Source of the DNA: a virus
IMG/VR virus record: IMGVR_UViG_3300009181_000455
Coordinates: 1-20,433 of that record
Length of the DNA: 20,433 bases
Strand: one strand, 5' to 3'
The first letter of the stretch is position 1; every line of letters begins with the position of its first letter. Position numbers and translations under genes: made by a program. The notes under the pieces are model-generated. The model saw nothing but the letters and a program-made list of their open reading frames with translations. It searched no databases and was not told the DNA's origin. Below are positions 2,281 to 20,157 of the stretch, in pieces.

Positions 2281-2857
2281 GTTCGCTACCCCCCGCGATA
2301 TCTTTCATTGTAGCATTCGTCAGGGAGGCGGCGGCGGCTTGTACGACCTCGCGAAACTCGTCCAAAGTGCCCCCGTTGACGAGGGTCCGGTCGATCAGTC
2401 GGCGGCTGATGCCGGCCTCGCTGACGTGTCCGACGCAGGTGGCCGCGCCGGGGCGAGTTACTTCCCAGATGACACCGCCGAACCTGTCGCGGATCATCTC
2501 GGCTTCGTCGTCGAACCGGACGTCGGGGACGACGACGCAGGCTCGCCCTTCGCCCCATCCGGCGAACCGAATCCGATGGGCCGCAATCTTCAGCCAGACG
2601 TCCTTTGACACCATCCCCCGCCCCCAGTCAGTTCCGAGAGTCTGGAGAAGTTGGCGAGGCGACTTCCCCAGCCAGGGGATCACGTTCTCTTTGAACTGCC
2701 GGTCCTTGAGTTGCTCGACCGCGCAGCTCGTCATCTTGGCGATCATGTCGTAGAGCGGGTCGGCTAGAGCAATCTCATGCCATCCGAGCATTGACGCGAC
2801 CGTCCCCTTGCCGGCCCCGGCCGCCCCGGTAATGCCAACCACGATGAGCCCGCTCAT
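2249..2857 (-). CDS. Deoxynucleoside monophosphate kinase (T4 gp1-like)
   Basis: 202 residues. Predicted to phosphorylate dNMPs to dNDPs with ATP, feeding phage DNA synthesis. An N-terminal beta strand leads into a Walker A P-loop, GAAGAGKGT (11-19). It is followed by ADPLYDMIAKMT (32-43), the conserved helix SPRQLLQTLGTDWGR (66-80), the strand and loop CVVVPDVRFDDEAEMI (107-122), and HVSEAGI (144-150). This order is that of phage dNMP kinases. The protein is somewhat shorter than T4 gp1, as is usual for siphovirus homologues. Translation is coupled to the deaminase: the ATG overlaps its TGA, with AAGGAG upstream inside the deaminase gene. Together with the deaminase it forms a small dNTP-supply pair. 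Substrate preference (dCMP, dTMP, dGMP or modified bases) cannot be read from the sequence. Confidence 0.85.
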   Translation of the reverse strand: MSGLIVVGITGAAGAGKGTVASMLGWHEIALADPLYDMIAKMTSCAVEQLKDRQFKENVIPWLGKSPRQLLQTLGTDWGRGMVSKDVWLKIAAHRIRFAGWGEGRACVVVPDVRFDDEAEMIRDRFGGVIWEVTRPGAATCVGHVSEAGISRRLIDRTLVNGGTLDEFREVVQAAAASLTNATMKDIAGGSEHDRRIKGGVG

Positions 2858-3342
2858 ATCTCAATCTCCTTGCCGTCGAACAGGATTTTGGTCCCCAAGT
2901 CTGATGCCACCCACCACATCTCGACGCCTGCCTCTTCAAGCATCTGGTGGGCCGCGGCGATCTCGTCCGACCACCTCGCCGGCGTCATGTGCCGAAGTTT
3001 CCGCAGGCCAACGACCTCTTTGATCCCTGCGCCGATGATCGCTCTGGCACAGTGGCAGCAGGCAAACCAAGGGGCGTACATGACGGCGCCCTTGGTCTTG
3101 AAGCCGTACCTCGCGCAGGTGAACAGGACGTCTCTCTCCGCGTGTTCGATGTAGCGGGCCTTGTGTTCCGGGGACTTCCTGGCGTCGTTTGCCTCGACGC
3201 CCTGCGGGAAGCGGTTGGAGCCGAAGCACACGTCCCGCGGCTCGGCAGAGAACTGGACGGCGGCCCCGACCCTGGTGCGGGGGTCGTCCGAATCCCGCAT
3301 CCCGAAGTCGACCGCTCTCCGCAAAAGCCTGAGTTCGCTCAT
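2854..3342 (-). CDS. dCMP deaminase-like zinc-dependent cytidylate deaminase
   Basis: 162 residues from ATG 3342, chosen because it overlaps the upstream TGA (ATGA) and has a GGGAGGG Shine-Dalgarno run; a longer frame upstream is only a shadow. Zinc-site motifs of the CDA/dCMP deaminase fold are present: HAE (67-69, His ligand plus catalytic Glu) and C95-x-x-C98 within FACCHCARAIIGAGIKEV. Upstream residues DPRTRVGAAVQ (20-30) and FGSNRFPQG (40-48) match the substrate-side loop seen in dCMP deaminases. The reaction would be dCMP to dUMP, towards dTTP. The residue before the first ligand Cys is Ala, where Pro is usual (PCxxC), an unusual but probably tolerated change. The typical long allosteric-site insert of large T4-type dCMP deaminases is not apparent. 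Deamination of another cytidylate is an alternative. Confidence 0.82.
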   Translation of the reverse strand: MSELRLLRRAVDFGMRDSDDPRTRVGAAVQFSAEPRDVCFGSNRFPQGVEANDARKSPEHKARYIEHAERDVLFTCARYGFKTKGAVMYAPWFACCHCARAIIGAGIKEVVGLRKLRHMTPARWSDEIAAAHQMLEEAGVEMWWVASDLGTKILFDGKEIEI

Positions 3343-4601
3343 TTTCCCTCCCTTTCCGGCCCGGCGACGAGCATCCCGTCGAGGCCGCCTCTGTGACTGT
3401 AGAAAAACGTCTCCATAGCCCGGCGCGACCCAACGAAGCCGTGGCTGGAATGCCATTCGTCCGCTGGGCACAACGCCGGTGCCTGCCGGACCAGCACCGA
3501 GTCAATCGTCTCGATGGGCCGCTGCCACTCGGCGGCCTGCGAGTGAAAGTGGCCGGTGTGGAACTCGCGGTAGGGGCACTGTGCCCACAATGCAGGCCGC
3601 TCTAGGGCCATCAGTTGCGGCAGCCGCTTCTTGGCTTTGTCGCCGTGGGCAAACCCGAGCAGCGTCCCGCCGTGATGGGCGTAGGTGCGGGAGGTGTAGC
3701 TCTTGGCGATCGTCACCCGCTCGTCCTTCGCGAACTGGAGGCAGAGCATCTTGTGAAAGGCCCACGACAGGGCCTCGTCGTGGTTGCCGGCCACAAGGAC
3801 GACGTCGGTCTGGCAGGTCTCGGCCGAGTGGGCCACGATGTCAAGCAGGGCGTCGGTGCCCGTGTCGAGCATCTTCTGGATGCGGGAGTCGCGGTCGAGG
3901 TAGGTGTTTCCGCTGCTGGTCGTGCCACGCGGCGTGTCGAAATGGAACAGGTCTCCGCAGAAGGCCACCGTTCGACGGGCCGGGCGGAACAACGTGTCGC
4001 CGCTGGCGACAAGCTCCTGGGACGTGTCGCCCAAAAGCCTCGTTGCGATGTTCAGGTCGTAGTCGGCCTCGCCGGTCGAAGGCGTCCAGGCCAGCTTGGC
4101 AAGATGGACGTCGGCCACGACCAGCACCTGCCAGGCGCCGCCGGCCCGCGGGCGGTGCGGCTTGCGGGCCTTGCGGGCCATGGAGGCCGCGGCGCCGTCG
4201 AGCATGGCCTTCACGGCGTCGAGGACGCCGGGGCCACCGCGGGGCTTGAGACGCACCCACACGCGGTAGAGGGGCACCTTGGCGTCGCCGCAGGGGGATT
4301 CCCAGACGGTCGCCTCGCTTGCGGCGACCTCAAACTTCGTCAGGTCGGCTTCGATGTGGGCCAGCAGGTCGTCCACGGTCTTGATGCCGTGGCTGGCCGA
4401 GTGGACGATCGTCTGGTCGCCTTCGACCTTGGTCGTGATCTGGGGCGGCCCGAGGATCGACGGGTCGTCGGCGATCAGCTTTCCAACCAGTCGCGGACGG
4501 TTGATATCCCCGGAAGCGGGCCTACTCCCATCTCCGCTAGTTCTGCGACCAGTTTTTGGGCCAGTCGCCGTCCCGCGGCCTTGAGCGTTCCGTCTCGCCA
4601 T
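3339..4601 (-). CDS. Phage metallophosphoesterase (calcineurin-like fold)
   Basis: 420 residues. All dimetal motifs of the calcineurin-like phosphoesterase fold are visible in order: D164-x-H166 (VADVHLAKL), GDLFHFD (216-222), GNHDE (272-276), H319 in FAHGD, and GHFH (350-353). The middle part, with YDLNIATRLL, DSRIQKMLDTG and MALERPALWA, follows a phage-specific family whose substrate is unknown (DNA ends, cyclic nucleotides or phosphoproteins are all possible). Residues 1-35 are Arg/Gly/Thr-rich and probably disordered; 48-125 form a separate domain containing HGIKTVDDLLAHIEADL. The start has AGGAGG 10 bases upstream. It overlaps the preceding small gene by 127 bases, which is large, so a later non-ATG start cannot be excluded. 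The stop overlaps the deaminase start (ATGA). From memory, relatives often carry an N-terminal helix-turn-helix, absent here. Confidence 0.85.
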   Translation of the reverse strand: MARRNAQGRGTATGPKTGRRTSGDGSRPASGDINRPRLVGKLIADDPSILGPPQITTKVEGDQTIVHSASHGIKTVDDLLAHIEADLTKFEVAASEATVWESPCGDAKVPLYRVWVRLKPRGGPGVLDAVKAMLDGAAASMARKARKPHRPRAGGAWQVLVVADVHLAKLAWTPSTGEADYDLNIATRLLGDTSQELVASGDTLFRPARRTVAFCGDLFHFDTPRGTTSSGNTYLDRDSRIQKMLDTGTDALLDIVAHSAETCQTDVVLVAGNHDEALSWAFHKMLCLQFAKDERVTIAKSYTSRTYAHHGGTLLGFAHGDKAKKRLPQLMALERPALWAQCPYREFHTGHFHSQAAEWQRPIETIDSVLVRQAPALCPADEWHSSHGFVGSRRAMETFFYSHRGGLDGMLVAGPEREGK

Positions 4602-15169: not shown

Positions 15170-15960
15170 TTGAGCCTCGCGTTGATGGCGTTGATCAGTC
15201 CGATCTCCAGCGACATCAGGACATCTCCGCTACAGGCGGTGATGACATCCGACATGATGTGGAGGGCGGGCATGGGGGCAATGGTCTCGCCCGGCTTGAG
15301 CGTGATCGGGTGTTGCTTTCGCCCGTCCCCACCATCCCCTGGCCCTGCAAAGTCTCGGGAATAGCTGTTTCCTGGGCCACGTTCGCGCAGGCTGCCCATG
15401 AGGAAGTAATAGCCGCGGCCGGCGTTCTTGAACTGGTCGTCGTTCATCGACTTGCCAGGGTGGAGCTTCATCCGGCCGTTGATCGACTGGTGGACGTTGA
15501 CGTAGGTCCGGCGCCCCTGCGTTCCGGGGCGGCGGGGACCACTGCCGAACTCGACCAGCCACGCATGATTACCAGATTCAACGCCCTCTTGCGATTTGTT
15601 TCGGCCAGTTTGGCGGGGGCCAATGATGTCGACCGCGGCCTTGCCGCCGCGGCCGTTGTTATACGACCGGCGCACGACCGTCACGGACTTGGCAAGGTTT
15701 CCGGTGGCCTCATGCCGCAGGGCCATCTCGCGGTACTCATCCATGACGATCCGCGATGCCTTGCGGACGATCTTGCGCAGCGTCTCGTTGGCCTCGACGG
15801 CAGTGACGAGCGAGTTCAGCCTGTCGACAAGCTCTCGGACTCCTGACGTTCGGATCGTGACGAACTGATTCGCCTGCTCAAGGCCCGTCGAGCCGCCGAG
15901 GTCGCGCGGCGTCGGGTTGTTCTGCGTGATCGATGGGAGGTTCGCGTAGCCCAGAGCCAT
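15166..15960 (-). CDS. HK97 gp10-like neck/tail-completion protein, extended form
   Basis: 264 residues from ATG 15960, sharing one base with the upstream stop (TGATG); a near-perfect AAGGAGGTGA 4-7 bases before it favours this ATG over the GTG just upstream. The gp10-like core is visible: SGVRELVDRLNSL (about 40-52), helix LRKIVRKASRIVMDEYREMA, TGNLAKSVTVVRRS, then a HAWLVEFGSGPRR segment matching the 'yA.fvEfGt' motif, and PALHIMSDVI near the end, matching the 'PFlrPA' closing motif. It is about twice the usual length (near 130): an insertion after EFGSGPRRPG contains TYVNVHQSINGRMKLHPG and a GRGYYFLMGSLRERGPGNSY segment. It should join neck and tail; the insertion may add a particle-specific contact. 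Confidence 0.78.
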   Translation of the reverse strand: MALGYANLPSITQNNPTPRDLGGSTGLEQANQFVTIRTSGVRELVDRLNSLVTAVEANETLRKIVRKASRIVMDEYREMALRHEATGNLAKSVTVVRRSYNNGRGGKAAVDIIGPRQTGRNKSQEGVESGNHAWLVEFGSGPRRPGTQGRRTYVNVHQSINGRMKLHPGKSMNDDQFKNAGRGYYFLMGSLRERGPGNSYSRDFAGPGDGGDGRKQHPITLKPGETIAPMPALHIMSDVITACSGDVLMSLEIGLINAINARLN

Positions 15961-16277
15961 CACGTCACCTCCTTTGCCAGAATCTCATGGATCGCCCGCA
16001 CTTCACGCTCGACGATGCTGGAAATCTCCAGCACGCGGCCCCGCCAGACCAGCCGCCATGTGTGTTCGATGCCGGGGTAGAAGCGGATGCGGACCTTGTG
16101 GCTCACGATGGCGTTGGCCTGCATGGCCTGGAGGATTTCGCGGGACGAAAGACCCAAGACGCTGGCCCACACCTCCGCGATGTCCTCCCACTCCAGATTC
16201 GCAGACCCCAAGCCCGTCCGGTTCGTCGCCGGCCTCTGGAGAAGCACCCGTTCTCGCATCATGCCGGCGTTGATCAT
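15960..16277 (-). CDS. Phage head-tail joining protein (SPP1 gp16-type)
   Basis: 105 residues from ATG 16277, sharing one base with the upstream stop (TGATG); a GTG four codons earlier is less likely. The sequence has the stopper-protein pattern: MRERVLLQRPATNRTGLG, then EWEDIAEVWASVLGLSSREILQA (29-51), then SHKVRIRFYPGIEHTWRLVWRGRVLEI (59-85), and a final basic helix. 'R..W.gr.leI' and the 'WAsv....sr' element are hallmarks of the head-tail joining family. It should close the portal channel after packaging or join connector to tail. The order connector, stopper, gp10, tail completion is standard for HK97-like phages. Confidence 0.82.
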   Translation of the reverse strand: MINAGMMRERVLLQRPATNRTGLGSANLEWEDIAEVWASVLGLSSREILQAMQANAIVSHKVRIRFYPGIEHTWRLVWRGRVLEISSIVEREVRAIHEILAKEVT

Positions 16278-16609
16278 CACCCCACCCACAGTGCCGAATA
16301 GGAGCCCTGGCCGCTCACTGACGCCACCGTGACCGTCGCCGTGACCGGCAGGACGGCCAGACGGCCCGAGGAGACGTCGATCGCCCCTGCGAGCCTGAGC
16401 GACTGAGAGCCTTCGTTCTTGACGACCAAAGTCGACAGAACCGTCGGGCCGGTGATCGACACCGCCGACGTACCCACAGTCGCTGATCCGATGTACTGAA
16501 TGACGTTCGGTTCGATGAGAAAGTGGTCGGAGAGGCTGTTGACGACGAACGTCGCCGTGCCCGTGTTGTGGCAGATGAGGTCGACGTCGAGCTTGGAGCG
16601 AAGCGTCAT
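16277..16609 (-). CDS. Small beta-rich head/neck protein, unknown function
   Basis: 110 residues, start ATG 16609. A TAGGTA element lies at ribosome-binding distance. The protein is Val/Thr/Ser-rich with alternating strand pattern: KLDVDLICHNTGTATFVV, then TSAVSITGPTVLSTLVVKNE, then GRLAVLPVTATVTVASVSG and SYSALWVG. This suits an Ig-like or decoration-type beta domain. No enzyme, metal or membrane feature is seen. It lies between the connector and the head-tail joining gene, so a capsid decoration or neck accessory protein is the most natural inference. No family was recognised. Confidence 0.62.
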   Translation of the reverse strand: MTLRSKLDVDLICHNTGTATFVVNSLSDHFLIEPNVIQYIGSATVGTSAVSITGPTVLSTLVVKNEGSQSLRLAGAIDVSSGRLAVLPVTATVTVASVSGQGSYSALWVG

Positions 16610-16614
16610 CGGAA

Positions 16615-16655
16615 GTACCTAGTTTGCTACCTAATTCCAGCCCGCTACTACCTAA
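16615..16655. repeat. Three short direct repeats (TTAGGTAG-like)
   Basis: In the 38-base gap between the connector stop and ATG 16609 the minus strand carries TTAGGTAG at 16655-16648 and again at 16634-16627, plus a CTAGGTAC variant at 16622-16615. Offsets are 21 and 12 bases. One copy overlaps the connector stop and the last could serve as ribosome binding site. Operator-like or chance. Confidence 0.45.
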
Positions 16656-17289
16656 ATACGCCCAGGTCAGCCGCCGCCAGCAGCGTGTCGAACGTCTTCG
16701 GGATCGTGCCGTAGGTTCCCGGCGACACGATCTGCCGAGAGTCGTACCAATGGGCGACCAGCATCATGATCAGGTGCTTGTAGATCGGCGGCACACTCGA
16801 CCCGTCGGTGCCGAAGCCGGCGGTGAAGTTGACGACGACGCTGTTCTCGTCGCCGCGGACGCCCGGCCATGTATCCGACCAGTTGGGATAGATGCGGCCG
16901 GGGACCGTGCGGGTGTCGACCCTGAAGTCTCCGGCCGCGCTGCTCTTGGTGGACGTTGCGCCATCCCCAAGGCGATAGGTCACTGTGATGTTGGCCGACT
17001 GGAGCATCGGCCGGGGCAGGACGATCTTCCAGACCGGAAACAGGTCGTAGGAGACCTCCCAGACGGTCGTGAGCAGCGTGATGTCGAGGATGTCCTCGAC
17101 ATACTGCCTCGCGACGGCGATCAACACCTGGATGTAGGCGTCGTCAGCCTCGGTGTCGACTCGGGCCTGCACCTTTGCTTCGCCCAGCGACACAGGCTCG
17201 ACCGCCGGCTCCGTGATTCGGACGAGGCTGCGGAACGCCGTGATCGTCGGCGTAGGCCGCTGCGGCGATCCGAAGATGATGTAGTCCAT
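16648..17289 (-). CDS. Head-tail connector protein (gp6 / phiE125 gp8-like)
   Basis: 213 residues. The family features are clear: PVSLGEAKVQARVDTEADDAYIQ (about 32-54), then LIAVARQYVEDILDITLLTTVWEV (helix then strand), LPRPMLQSANITVTYRLGDG (91-110), a PGRIYPNW segment, VVVNFTAGFG (150-159) and VPPIYKHLIMMLVAHWYDSR (165-184). This matches the gp6-like connector family, including phiE125 gp8. It forms a ring beneath the portal and is needed for DNA retention and tail joining. The start ATG 17289 follows the previous stop by 3 bases with an AGAGGAAG ribosome binding site. Length is normal for the longer gp8-type branch. Confidence 0.85.
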   Translation of the reverse strand: MDYIIFGSPQRPTPTITAFRSLVRITEPAVEPVSLGEAKVQARVDTEADDAYIQVLIAVARQYVEDILDITLLTTVWEVSYDLFPVWKIVLPRPMLQSANITVTYRLGDGATSTKSSAAGDFRVDTRTVPGRIYPNWSDTWPGVRGDENSVVVNFTAGFGTDGSSVPPIYKHLIMMLVAHWYDSRQIVSPGTYGTIPKTFDTLLAAADLGVFR

Positions 17290-17292
17290 GGC

Positions 17293-17454
17293 CTACTTCC
17301 TCTTGGCGACGGCCACGGGCGCCGGAGCCGGCTCTTCCTTGGCTTCCTCGATCATTCGTCGGCCGATCAGGATTTCGCACATGCCGGGCGGCCAGTTGTC
17401 AAACACCTGACCAACCTCGTAGCCGTCGAATCCCATGAGAATGCGAATCTTCAT
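17293..17454 (-). CDS. Small conserved-looking protein between capsid and connector genes (53 aa)
   Basis: 53 residues from ATG 17454, which overlaps the glycosyltransferase stop (ATGA); a longer frame upstream is a shadow of that gene. The sequence MKIRILMGFDGYEVGQVFDN followed by WPPGMCEILIGRRMIEE has the form of short phage proteins often found beside head-tail connector genes: 'MkvrlL..f.GY..GdV...pdGMA.iLI.RGiAe.'. A Pro/Ala-rich tail (EEPAPAPVAVAKRK) follows. A small SH3-like barrel is possible. The role is unknown. Confidence 0.75.
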   Translation of the reverse strand: MKIRILMGFDGYEVGQVFDNWPPGMCEILIGRRMIEEAKEEPAPAPVAVAKRK

Positions 17455-18176
17455 ACCTGCCCCCAAGCCTTCTCTGGTGCCTTCTGGCCGTTCGACCAGT
17501 AGTCCGTCGTGTGCTGGAGGACTTTGCACTCCTCCACCGTCCGCGACGGCCAAGTGATCATCAACTCGGCGTGCCCGACGCTGACGTGCGTCGCCAGCCC
17601 TAGCTTGTTCCCGTTCTTTGTGAACTGCTTCCAGAAGTGGATGTCGGCGTCCATGTGGCCGCCATCGAACGTGCCCGCGTCGTTGGCGGTCTCGACGAAC
17701 CACGGCTTCGGCGTGGCCCGCAGGGCCGATGCCCGAATGAGCGTCAGGCCGAAGTGGGCCGTCTCGACCGGCTGCACGGGCTGCTTGAACCACTCGTCGC
17801 TGACCTGCGTCTGCTCGTCGGGCGTCGAGCCCGGCAGGGCGAACATGACCGCGTTGGCCTCTCGCTTCACCTGAAGCGGGGCGATGGCGTCCATGCCGCT
17901 CCACAGGGCAAGCGTCATGAGGGCCTCGACAGTCTTCGCGCTGAAGATCGTGTCGTAGTCGATCGTCAGCACCCAGTCGGCGTCCTTGACGACCGACTCT
18001 ATGGCCCGTTGGAGCGACTGACCCCAGTAGGCCCCTGTCACTTTGACCGGCGAAATGCCGTGTGGCGTCAGGGCCGACGCCACGCAGAAGAAGTTGTCGG
18101 TGAAGCCCAGCCGCGGCATGGACATGACCGCTGCGACCTTCACTTCCGCCTCTGTATTCCCGATGCGAACCAGCAT
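17451..18176 (-). CDS. Predicted glycosyltransferase (GT-A fold) in the head-gene operon
   Basis: 241 residues. Several features of nucleotide-sugar glycosyltransferases of the GT-A fold are visible: an early strand and turn VAAVMSMPRLGFTDNF (14-29); helix SLQRAIESVVKDADWVLTID leading to DYD at 73-75 (DxD-type metal site); AIAPLQVKREANAVMF (98-112); HFGLTLIRASAL (141-152), resembling the acceptor-side 'G..liRr..l'; and DADIHFWKQF (176-185) with GHAE (201-204), where the third metal ligand is usual. The enzyme would add sugar to a protein or other acceptor, perhaps the capsid, whose gene lies two upstream. The start is ATG 18176 with GGAG seven bases before it; that site lies in a perfect hairpin. 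Acceptor unknown; a different GT-A nucleotidyltransferase is an alternative. Confidence 0.72.
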   Translation of the reverse strand: MLVRIGNTEAEVKVAAVMSMPRLGFTDNFFCVASALTPHGISPVKVTGAYWGQSLQRAIESVVKDADWVLTIDYDTIFSAKTVEALMTLALWSGMDAIAPLQVKREANAVMFALPGSTPDEQTQVSDEWFKQPVQPVETAHFGLTLIRASALRATPKPWFVETANDAGTFDGGHMDADIHFWKQFTKNGNKLGLATHVSVGHAELMITWPSRTVEECKVLQHTTDYWSNGQKAPEKAWGQV

Positions 18177-18181
18177 TTTGA

Positions 18182-18199
18182 CGCTCCAAAGAAGGAGCG
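18182..18199 (-). promoter_or_regulatory. Hairpin enclosing the ribosome binding site of the glycosyltransferase gene
   Basis: On the minus strand CGCTCC, a TTCTTT loop and GGAGCG form a perfect six-base-pair hairpin. The 3' arm includes the GGAG Shine-Dalgarno, and TCAAA then ATG 18176 follow. Folding would hide the ribosome binding site. The 18222-18237 stretch nearby holds another small inverted repeat, CGGCC-ATCAAT-GGCCG on the plus strand. No U-tract follows either, so termination is unlikely. Confidence 0.6.
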
Positions 18200-18249: not shown

Positions 18250-18672
18250 TCAGCCGACCACCCAACCGATGACACCGGCGTCCGCAGCGGTCACGGGCGC
18301 GTTCTCGCCGCGGTACAGGCGGGCACAGACAGCGACGTTCACCGCGGTCGAAGGCGTGCAGGTCAGCTTCAGGTAGCGCCGTGTGGCCTTCGCATCCACG
18401 TCGAGCTTGTAGGCGACGGCGGTGCTGGTGGTCGCCTGGGCGATCGTGAAGTCGGTCCCGCCGGTGAAGCCCGAGACGGCGACGTAGGTCGAGTCGTCGC
18501 TCGACTGCTCAACCTTCAGCACCGACGCGAACGTGGTGGCCGCGTTGGCCGCCCGAACCGCGACGAAGCTGACGCCGTCGTAGCCGAGGGTGTCGACGGT
18601 CAGGGTCACGGCCGAACTGGCGACGGCGGCGGGGAGGGCCACCGCCATCTTTTCCATCTGTGCATGGATCAT
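18250..18672 (-). CDS. Small beta-rich protein next to the major capsid gene (decoration candidate)
   Basis: 140 residues, ATG 18672 with AGGAG 11 bases upstream. Composition and pattern (PAAVASSAVTLTVDTLGYDGVSF; VLKVEQSSDDSTYVAVSGFT; VAYKLDVDAKATRRYLKLTC) are those of a beta-sandwich virion domain. 'YDGVSFVAV', then 'VEQSSDDSTYVAV', then 'RRYLKL' form a motif I associate with small phage structural proteins that follow the capsid gene, commonly called decoration or head proteins. No signal, metal or enzyme motif is seen. I infer a head component; exact family unrecognised. Confidence 0.68.
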   Translation of the reverse strand: MIHAQMEKMAVALPAAVASSAVTLTVDTLGYDGVSFVAVRAANAATTFASVLKVEQSSDDSTYVAVSGFTGGTDFTIAQATTSTAVAYKLDVDAKATRRYLKLTCTPSTAVNVAVCARLYRGENAPVTAADAGVIGWVVG

Positions 18673-18717: not shown

Positions 18718-20121
18718 TCAAGACGCAGCGGTCTTGAGGGCGATCACGGGGCCGGCGATGTCCGTCCCGGCCGGGTCTTTCGTGCCGAGGGTGTGATGGA
18801 CGATGTCGAACCTCATCGTGCCCTGGAGGAGAAGCTGATCGGTCGTGGCGTAGACTTGGTCGTACATCCGCACCGAGAAGTCCCGGCGGCGAGCGTAGAT
18901 CGAGGAGAGCCCGAGGTTGCCGAACAGCACCTTGACCTGCGAGGCGTCGGTGCCGAGGGTGCTGTTCATCACATGGATTTGCTCCACCGGGTAGCCGAGG
19001 AAGCTCTCGGTCACACCGCCGCCGATGTCGGTCTGGGTGTTACCGCCCGAGGCGTAGCGGAGACGGGCCATCGAGGCAGCGTAGCCGGCCGGGGAGATGT
19101 AAAACCGGGCACCCTGGCGGGCGTACAGCGGGAGCTTGCCGATGAGCTTGAGGAAGTCGTCGATCGTCAGCGTCTCAAACGAGACGTGGCCGGTGGTGGC
19201 GGTCTGGAGGGCCGCCGGGGAGACGTTGCTGGCGAGCTTGTTGACAAGCCCGTAGATGCCGCCGTAGGTCGAGCTTCCGTCACCGATCCATCCGCAGCCG
19301 TCGATCTGAAAGGCAAGCGAGGTAGCGAACTCAGCGGCGACTGCGTCTGCCATGGAGATCAGGCTGTCCTCGACGACCTCCGAAGACATCCGCGTGGAAA
19401 CGGCGAGCTTCTTGGCTACCAACTGCACGTTGGAATAGCTGGGTTGGCTCTCGGTGGAGGCGACGCCTTCGCCGATGAAGTAGGCCGTGGTGCCAGTCAC
19501 CCGCTTCGGGATGATCATGGTGTCGCGGTTCATCGTCACCTTCTCGACGCTCGACGCGGCGAAGGTGCCGTAGGTCTCGACGAGCCGGATCACGCGAGCA
19601 GCGAACTCCTCGGGGACGAGGGCGCCACCGGCCGAGTTGGTGTTCTCACCGAGGGCACGGGCCTCGACGTTGTGGTCCTTGCACCACTGGATGTCGTCGG
19701 CGTTCTTGAAAACGTGGGCCTTGAGCCACCGACCGCAGCGGTAGGCGGTCTCGACGTCCTCGGGGCGCTCGTTGAAGGCCCGAAGCTGGGTGTGATGGGG
19801 GACGTGAACGCCCCGAATCTCCAGGTCAGCGAGGGTCTTCTTGGCCCGAAGTTCCCGAGTCTCCGGCTCCTGCGGGGCAGGGGCGGCGGGGGCGGTCGCT
19901 GCGGCGGGAGCGGCCTGCTCGATGGTCGAGCGAAGCTCCGACTCCTCCTTGGCGATGTTGGCCTCAAAGGCCAGCGACTGCCGGACTTCGCCCGACTGAG
20001 TGACGAGGGACTTCAGTTCTGCGTCCTGCTCGGGCGAGCGCTCGGTGAGATTGGAGAGCGCCCGCATCTGATTGGCGACGGCGGCGGCGCGATTCTGGAG
20101 GCTCTTGAGATTCTTCGACAT
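18718..20121 (-). CDS. HK97-fold major capsid protein with N-terminal scaffold region
   Basis: 467 residues from ATG 20121 (AGGAG 10 bases upstream); an in-frame TTG 12 codons earlier lacks such a site. The first 100 residues are helical, rich in Ala/Glu/Gln (KSLQNRAAAVANQMRALSNL, then the ESELRSTIEQ region), followed by Pro/Ala spacing: the delta/scaffold domain of HK97-type capsids. The fold proper begins near 155 with ALGENTNSAGGALVPEEFAA. It continues with the P-domain helix region MSSEVVEDSLISMADAVAAE, the GWIGDGSSTYGGIYGLV loop, and a C-terminal strand YDQVYATTDQLLLQGTMRFD. This matches HK97 family major capsid proteins. A protease should remove the scaffold before expansion; the cut site is probably near 140-160. 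It lies right after the unidentified partial gene at the right edge. Confidence 0.9.
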   Translation of the reverse strand: MSKNLKSLQNRAAAVANQMRALSNLTERSPEQDAELKSLVTQSGEVRQSLAFEANIAKEESELRSTIEQAAPAAATAPAAPAPQEPETRELRAKKTLADLEIRGVHVPHHTQLRAFNERPEDVETAYRCGRWLKAHVFKNADDIQWCKDHNVEARALGENTNSAGGALVPEEFAARVIRLVETYGTFAASSVEKVTMNRDTMIIPKRVTGTTAYFIGEGVASTESQPSYSNVQLVAKKLAVSTRMSSEVVEDSLISMADAVAAEFATSLAFQIDGCGWIGDGSSTYGGIYGLVNKLASNVSPAALQTATTGHVSFETLTIDDFLKLIGKLPLYARQGARFYISPAGYAASMARLRYASGGNTQTDIGGGVTESFLGYPVEQIHVMNSTLGTDASQVKVLFGNLGLSSIYARRRDFSVRMYDQVYATTDQLLLQGTMRFDIVHHTLGTKDPAGTDIAGPVIALKTAAS

Positions 20122-20157
20122 GGTCGGCTTGCTCCTGATTGGGGCCAGCCAACGCAA

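Follow-up and report, generated by a model that had tools for sequence, protein, structure and literature searches.

The window analyzed here is an entire viral record of 20,433 bases. An open reading frame on its minus strand (positions 17451–18176, ATG start, TGA stop) lies within a run of structural genes and encodes a 241-aa protein, which raises the question of what an enzyme might do among the proteins of a phage head. A sequence-only reading had proposed a GT-A-type glycosyltransferase that adds sugar to the capsid or another virion protein; the positions it gave for the gene and for a DYD motif (residues 73–75) were exact, and the strand, which it left out, is minus. The reading frame is a real gene and not a chance one, because at least 266 viral contigs carrying relatives were found when IMG/VR was searched from the protein, dN/dS values of 0.13–0.30 against six relatives indicate purifying selection, and residues D73, D75, D178, and H202 are invariant.

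Relationship to GT-A glycosyltransferases

Searches with the single sequence gave weak signals (Pfam Glyco_trans_2_3, E 0.015; NCBIfam, 0.15), and a phmmer search of PDB with this sequence returned nothing useful. Against the GT2-like Pfam models Glycos_transf_2/Glyco_trans_2_3, the window protein scored 15.5 bits versus a curated cut-off of 27, whereas a relative with 63% identity (L126) reached 27.5. The weak signal was resolved by a family alignment, whose profile detected A197 of the archaeal virus STIV at E 3.8e-7 and a collagen galactosyltransferase at E 0.006. Members of the family match the Pfam models Anp1, Glyco_trans_2_3, Glycos_transf_2, and Glyco_transf_21.

An AlphaFold2 model of moderate confidence (pLDDT 75.5, pTM 0.78), which is poor beyond residue 205, pointed in the same direction. 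Its best fold match was STIV A197 (PDB 2c0n; Z 17.6, rmsd 3.1 over 165 residues), like the window enzyme a small single-domain GT-A protein, although the two share only about 11% identity and STIV has a double jelly-roll capsid. The match list was made up of GT-A enzymes, among them LH3, mimivirus R699, COLGALT1, and Mnn9, and the model also matched predicted phage GT-A proteins. LH3, COLGALT1, and R699 have the GT-A fold in common with the window protein (Z 14–17) but are large multidomain proteins with 12–17% identity to it. Several of the matched enzymes have protein substrates, including the human collagen glycosyltransferases LH3 and COLGALT1; TarP and RmlT, which act on wall polymers, were also found among the matches. 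Thus, fold matches and independent profile evidence both bear out the GT-A assignment of the sequence-only reading, which had named a non-glycosyltransferase fold as its refuting outcome.

Multiple alignment of 28 sequences, with identity down to 17%, revealed nine invariant columns. These include D73 and D75 of the DxD metal-binding motif of GT-A glycosyltransferases, as well as D178 and H202, which probably represent the downstream acidic residue (a presumed base) and the late histidine (a presumed metal or phosphate contact) of such enzymes. The four residues fit the site expected for this fold. D178, within a DADIHFW segment (residues 176–182), aligns with position 151 of STIV A197 if the chain numbering is that of the published work, in which the change D151E delays replication (PMC10551542). 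Two other motif readings fared less well. The segment HFGLTLIRAS (residues 141–150), which had been called acceptor-like, is a conserved segment common to STIV A197 (GLGFTFIKREF), and support for an acceptor role was not found. Similarly, the GHAE motif (residues 201–204), taken for the end of the protein, is followed by 37 residues. We are highly confident that the 241-aa protein is a GT-A glycosyltransferase.

Position among the head genes

Two genes precede the glycosyltransferase gene on the same strand. The major capsid gene (18718–20157, minus strand) was identified by Pfam Phage_capsid (E 2.3e-29); its first listed start is TTG, and an ATG further in at 20121 (MSKNLKSLQ) is likelier. 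Between it and the glycosyltransferase gene lies a gene for a 140-aa protein (18250–18672, minus strand) that belongs to PHROG 5707, a family of unknown function. The neighbors had been described as capsid and decoration genes; the capsid part is correct, whereas "decoration" is a guess from position, and the 140-aa product is best regarded as a possible decoration protein. Its fold model is a beta sandwich of modest confidence, and comparison of this model with known structures gave no telling match.

On the downstream side, a 53-aa gene of unknown function (17293–17454, minus strand) is followed by a head–tail connector gene (16648–17289, minus strand; Phage_connect_1, E 1.1e-8; PHROG 442 head–tail adaptor, E 2.9e-22), a head completion gene (15960–16289, minus strand), and genes for HK97-gp10-like and tail completion proteins. 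The 53-aa gene begins within the end of the glycosyltransferase gene, its ATG overlapping the stop codon, and such an overlap (ATGA, TTGA, or GTGA) is kept in all 80 relatives compared. Directly ahead of the glycosyltransferase start codon is a hairpin (18182–18199, minus strand; CGCTCC-TTCTTT-GGAGCG) with an invariant stem and a variable loop, whose 3' arm contains the likely ribosome binding site. All 79 relatives with upstream DNA have the stem pattern, as does L126. The folding signal itself is modest (z only -1.62), and an Rfam search of the window gave no match. The hairpin may hold expression of the glycosyltransferase under that of the structural proteins.

Among the genes past the tail module, the window encodes a deoxynucleoside monophosphate kinase and a dCMP deaminase (2249–2857 and 2854–3471, both on the minus strand). 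A further minus-strand gene (3339–4601) has a weak match to calcineurin-like metallophosphoesterases (E 0.001).

In relatives with visible flanks, the gene order is capsid, (140-aa gene), glycosyltransferase, (53-aa gene), connector. Because a protein-based survey starts from the glycosyltransferase itself, we repeated it starting from the capsid protein. Of the 65 slots visible, 64 contain the glycosyltransferase gene; the one in a close relative (L223) is cleanly empty, and the gene is thus not strictly essential. The order persists even in a phage contig (L293) from a genome of the planctomycete order to which the bin of L126 belongs, with identities of 37% for the capsid protein, 36% for the 140-aa protein, 38% for the glycosyltransferase, and 35% for the connector. 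Nine of the 64 slots that contain a glycosyltransferase gave no detectable 140-aa gene, and the gap between the capsid and glycosyltransferase genes is only about 140 bases in L018–L021, L023, and L126. One contig, L120, has two separate matches to the glycosyltransferase family (L120:4365 and L120:6001) approximately 1.6 kb apart; around both, no neighbors of either head lineage described here were detectable.

The sequence-only reading had also mentioned glycosyltransferases of actinobacterial phages, and nothing in our data points to an actinobacterial host. In cellular bins, relatives were found only on phage-like contigs, in one Planctomycetaceae MAG and one further genome of the same order; both L126 (WTHB01000189.1) and L293 (G281:C38) are head-module phage contigs of this lineage binned in planctomycete MAGs. 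Homologs occurred in 2 of 296 genomes of this order, on short phage-like contigs. A planctomycete host is a possible but weak lead.

Recurrence beside a second capsid family

A distant homolog of the window enzyme was found in phages with an SU10-type capsid (hhalign probability 97.8%, E 7e-13, between separate alignments). Its slot is flanked by the SU10-type capsid gene and a 100-aa gene on one side and by a gene for "tail tubular protein A" on the other. The two groups have capsid proteins of different Pfam families (Phage_capsid and SU10_MCP), and no similarity between them was detected by BLAST. The placement between head genes and connector proposed from the sequence is thus not only kept in 64 of the 65 capsid-sampled neighborhoods of the window lineage but recurs with a second capsid family.

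The homologs belong to PHROG 1574, which includes a "putative glycosyltransferase" (MW202711) and a protein of the cultured Microcystis phage Mel-JY34 that is annotated as hypothetical and encoded directly after the SU10-type capsid gene. By profile, this group is of the same family as the window enzyme and occupies the same place after the capsid gene, but it lacks the C-terminal extension of the window group and accompanies SU10-type capsids. It is likely that PHROG 1574 proteins are glycosyltransferases.

Distribution differs between the two lineages. A capsid-started survey of SU10-type phages detected the glycosyltransferase gene in 25 of 74 visible slots and its absence in 49, and most slots lacking it have closed up to about 360 bases. 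On a quick capsid tree of these phages, the presence or absence of the gene has to switch five times, and well-supported branches force at least three of these gains or losses. In addition, ORFs for HNH-type endonucleases (identity checked with Pfam for one locus) were observed in or beside the region between the capsid and tail tubular A genes in eight of the SU10-type loci read, of which three have the glycosyltransferase (L150, L178, and L206) and five do not (L156, L171, L181, L188, and L192); some of the ORFs adjoin the glycosyltransferase gene. The presence of these ORFs indicates that the region tolerates cargo, and HNH endonucleases are perhaps a vehicle of glycosyltransferase mobility. 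We tentatively suggest, at somewhat less than even odds, that PHROG 1574 and its sister group in the window lineage constitute a widespread group of small GT-A enzymes, a portable head-glycosylation module which repeatedly entered the same capsid–connector slot beside unrelated capsid families, and that capsid glycosylation would then be common in environmental tailed phages.

Probable role and its alternatives

The enzyme almost certainly transfers sugars, and it probably decorates the virus particle. Our favored explanation, which we hold with reasonable but far from complete confidence, is that it transfers sugar to a protein of the virion, with the major capsid protein as the most likely acceptor; the catalysis, sugar, acceptor, and benefit that we infer are as follows. 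A small, single-domain, metal-dependent GT-A glycosyltransferase would be produced together with the head proteins. D73 and D75, with a divalent metal, would bind a nucleotide sugar of the host, and transfer of the sugar to the virion protein would take place in the cytoplasm, either ahead of head assembly or in its course. The benefit could be shielding of the surface, stability, or altered adsorption.

The major capsid protein is the best candidate for the acceptor because it is the only neighbor always found upstream in both lineages, and because phages in which the 140-aa gene is not detected still have the enzyme. The latter observation also disfavors the 140-aa protein as sole acceptor, although a diverged copy may be present in such phages. 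In L223, which lacks the glycosyltransferase, the conserved columns of the capsid, connector, and tail completion proteins show few and mostly conservative changes (a single case), and the altered capsid columns revealed no obvious lost sugar site.

Known systems offer precedents for such a role. In STIV, the GT-A enzyme A197 is essential and the capsid protein is glycosylated (PMC10551542). In mycobacteriophage Corndog, four modification genes (gp35–gp38; an O-methyltransferase and glycosyltransferases) lie between the portal and protease genes (PMC4351075); a passage in PMC11600133 reports that they modify the capsid and tail tube, and one in PMC11256854 reports glycan-bearing capsids for the cluster F phage Che8. 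The arrangement, for which the sequence-only reading knew no example, thus has a precedent: the window enzyme is encoded within a run of structural genes, as are the virion-modifying enzymes of Corndog. The likeness is one of gene arrangement, although Corndog has four genes between portal and protease and the window one enzyme between capsid and connector, and a search of a phage collection with the window protein gave no mycobacteriophage match above noise.

Could the position among head genes serve only for late expression? The enzyme might then glycosylate a component of the host envelope late in infection, blocking superinfection or helping release. Envelope modification has been proposed for phage glycosyltransferases (PMC10202952), and the wall-polymer enzymes TarP and RmlT are among the fold matches; however, the slot next to the capsid gene is fixed with two capsid families, and the fold model suggests no membrane segment, which makes this role unlikely. 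Slightly less probable is that the enzyme is passive cargo in a permissive insertion site after the capsid gene, functionally unrelated to the head. Such a site would agree with the HNH endonucleases in or beside the region and with the coming and going of the gene in SU10-type phages, but it sits poorly with a gene that is nearly universal in the window lineage and whose coupling to the next gene is conserved, and with two related enzymes occupying the same slot beside unrelated capsid families.

A catalytically dead GT-A domain that serves in assembly or as a structural component would suit a place among structural and assembly genes. We consider it very improbable: DxD, D178, and H202 are invariant where the remainder drops to about 20% identity, and a dead enzyme would not need that. 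Glycosylation of DNA, which would shield the phage genome from nucleases, was examined because the window encodes the kinase and deaminase mentioned above, and it seems the least probable of these roles. The usual hydroxymethyl acceptor base needs an enzyme of the thymidylate synthase family; none was detected in 14 relatives (five of them at least 70 kb, with records that may be incomplete), and the gene is placed with head genes. DNA glycosylation has nevertheless been put forward as a role of glycosyltransferases encoded by freshwater phages (PMC10202952).

With regard to sugar transfer to a virion protein, glycosyltransferases within a phage structural operon (Corndog) and the STIV analog are already known. 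What is new is the family, the placement of a lone enzyme between the capsid and connector genes, the near-universal presence of this arrangement in one lineage and its gain or loss in another, and its recurrence with two capsid families. To our knowledge, virion glycosylation among tailed phages has been demonstrated in only a handful, most of them mycobacteriophages, in which it alters immune recognition. Heads that carry sugar could be more widespread among phages than these few cases suggest. PHROG 1574, so far without a function, gains a testable one. The frequency and role of such glycosylation also become directly testable, because the single-enzyme module beside the capsid gene is conserved, phages with and without the gene form natural pairs, and one carrier (Mel-JY34) is in culture.
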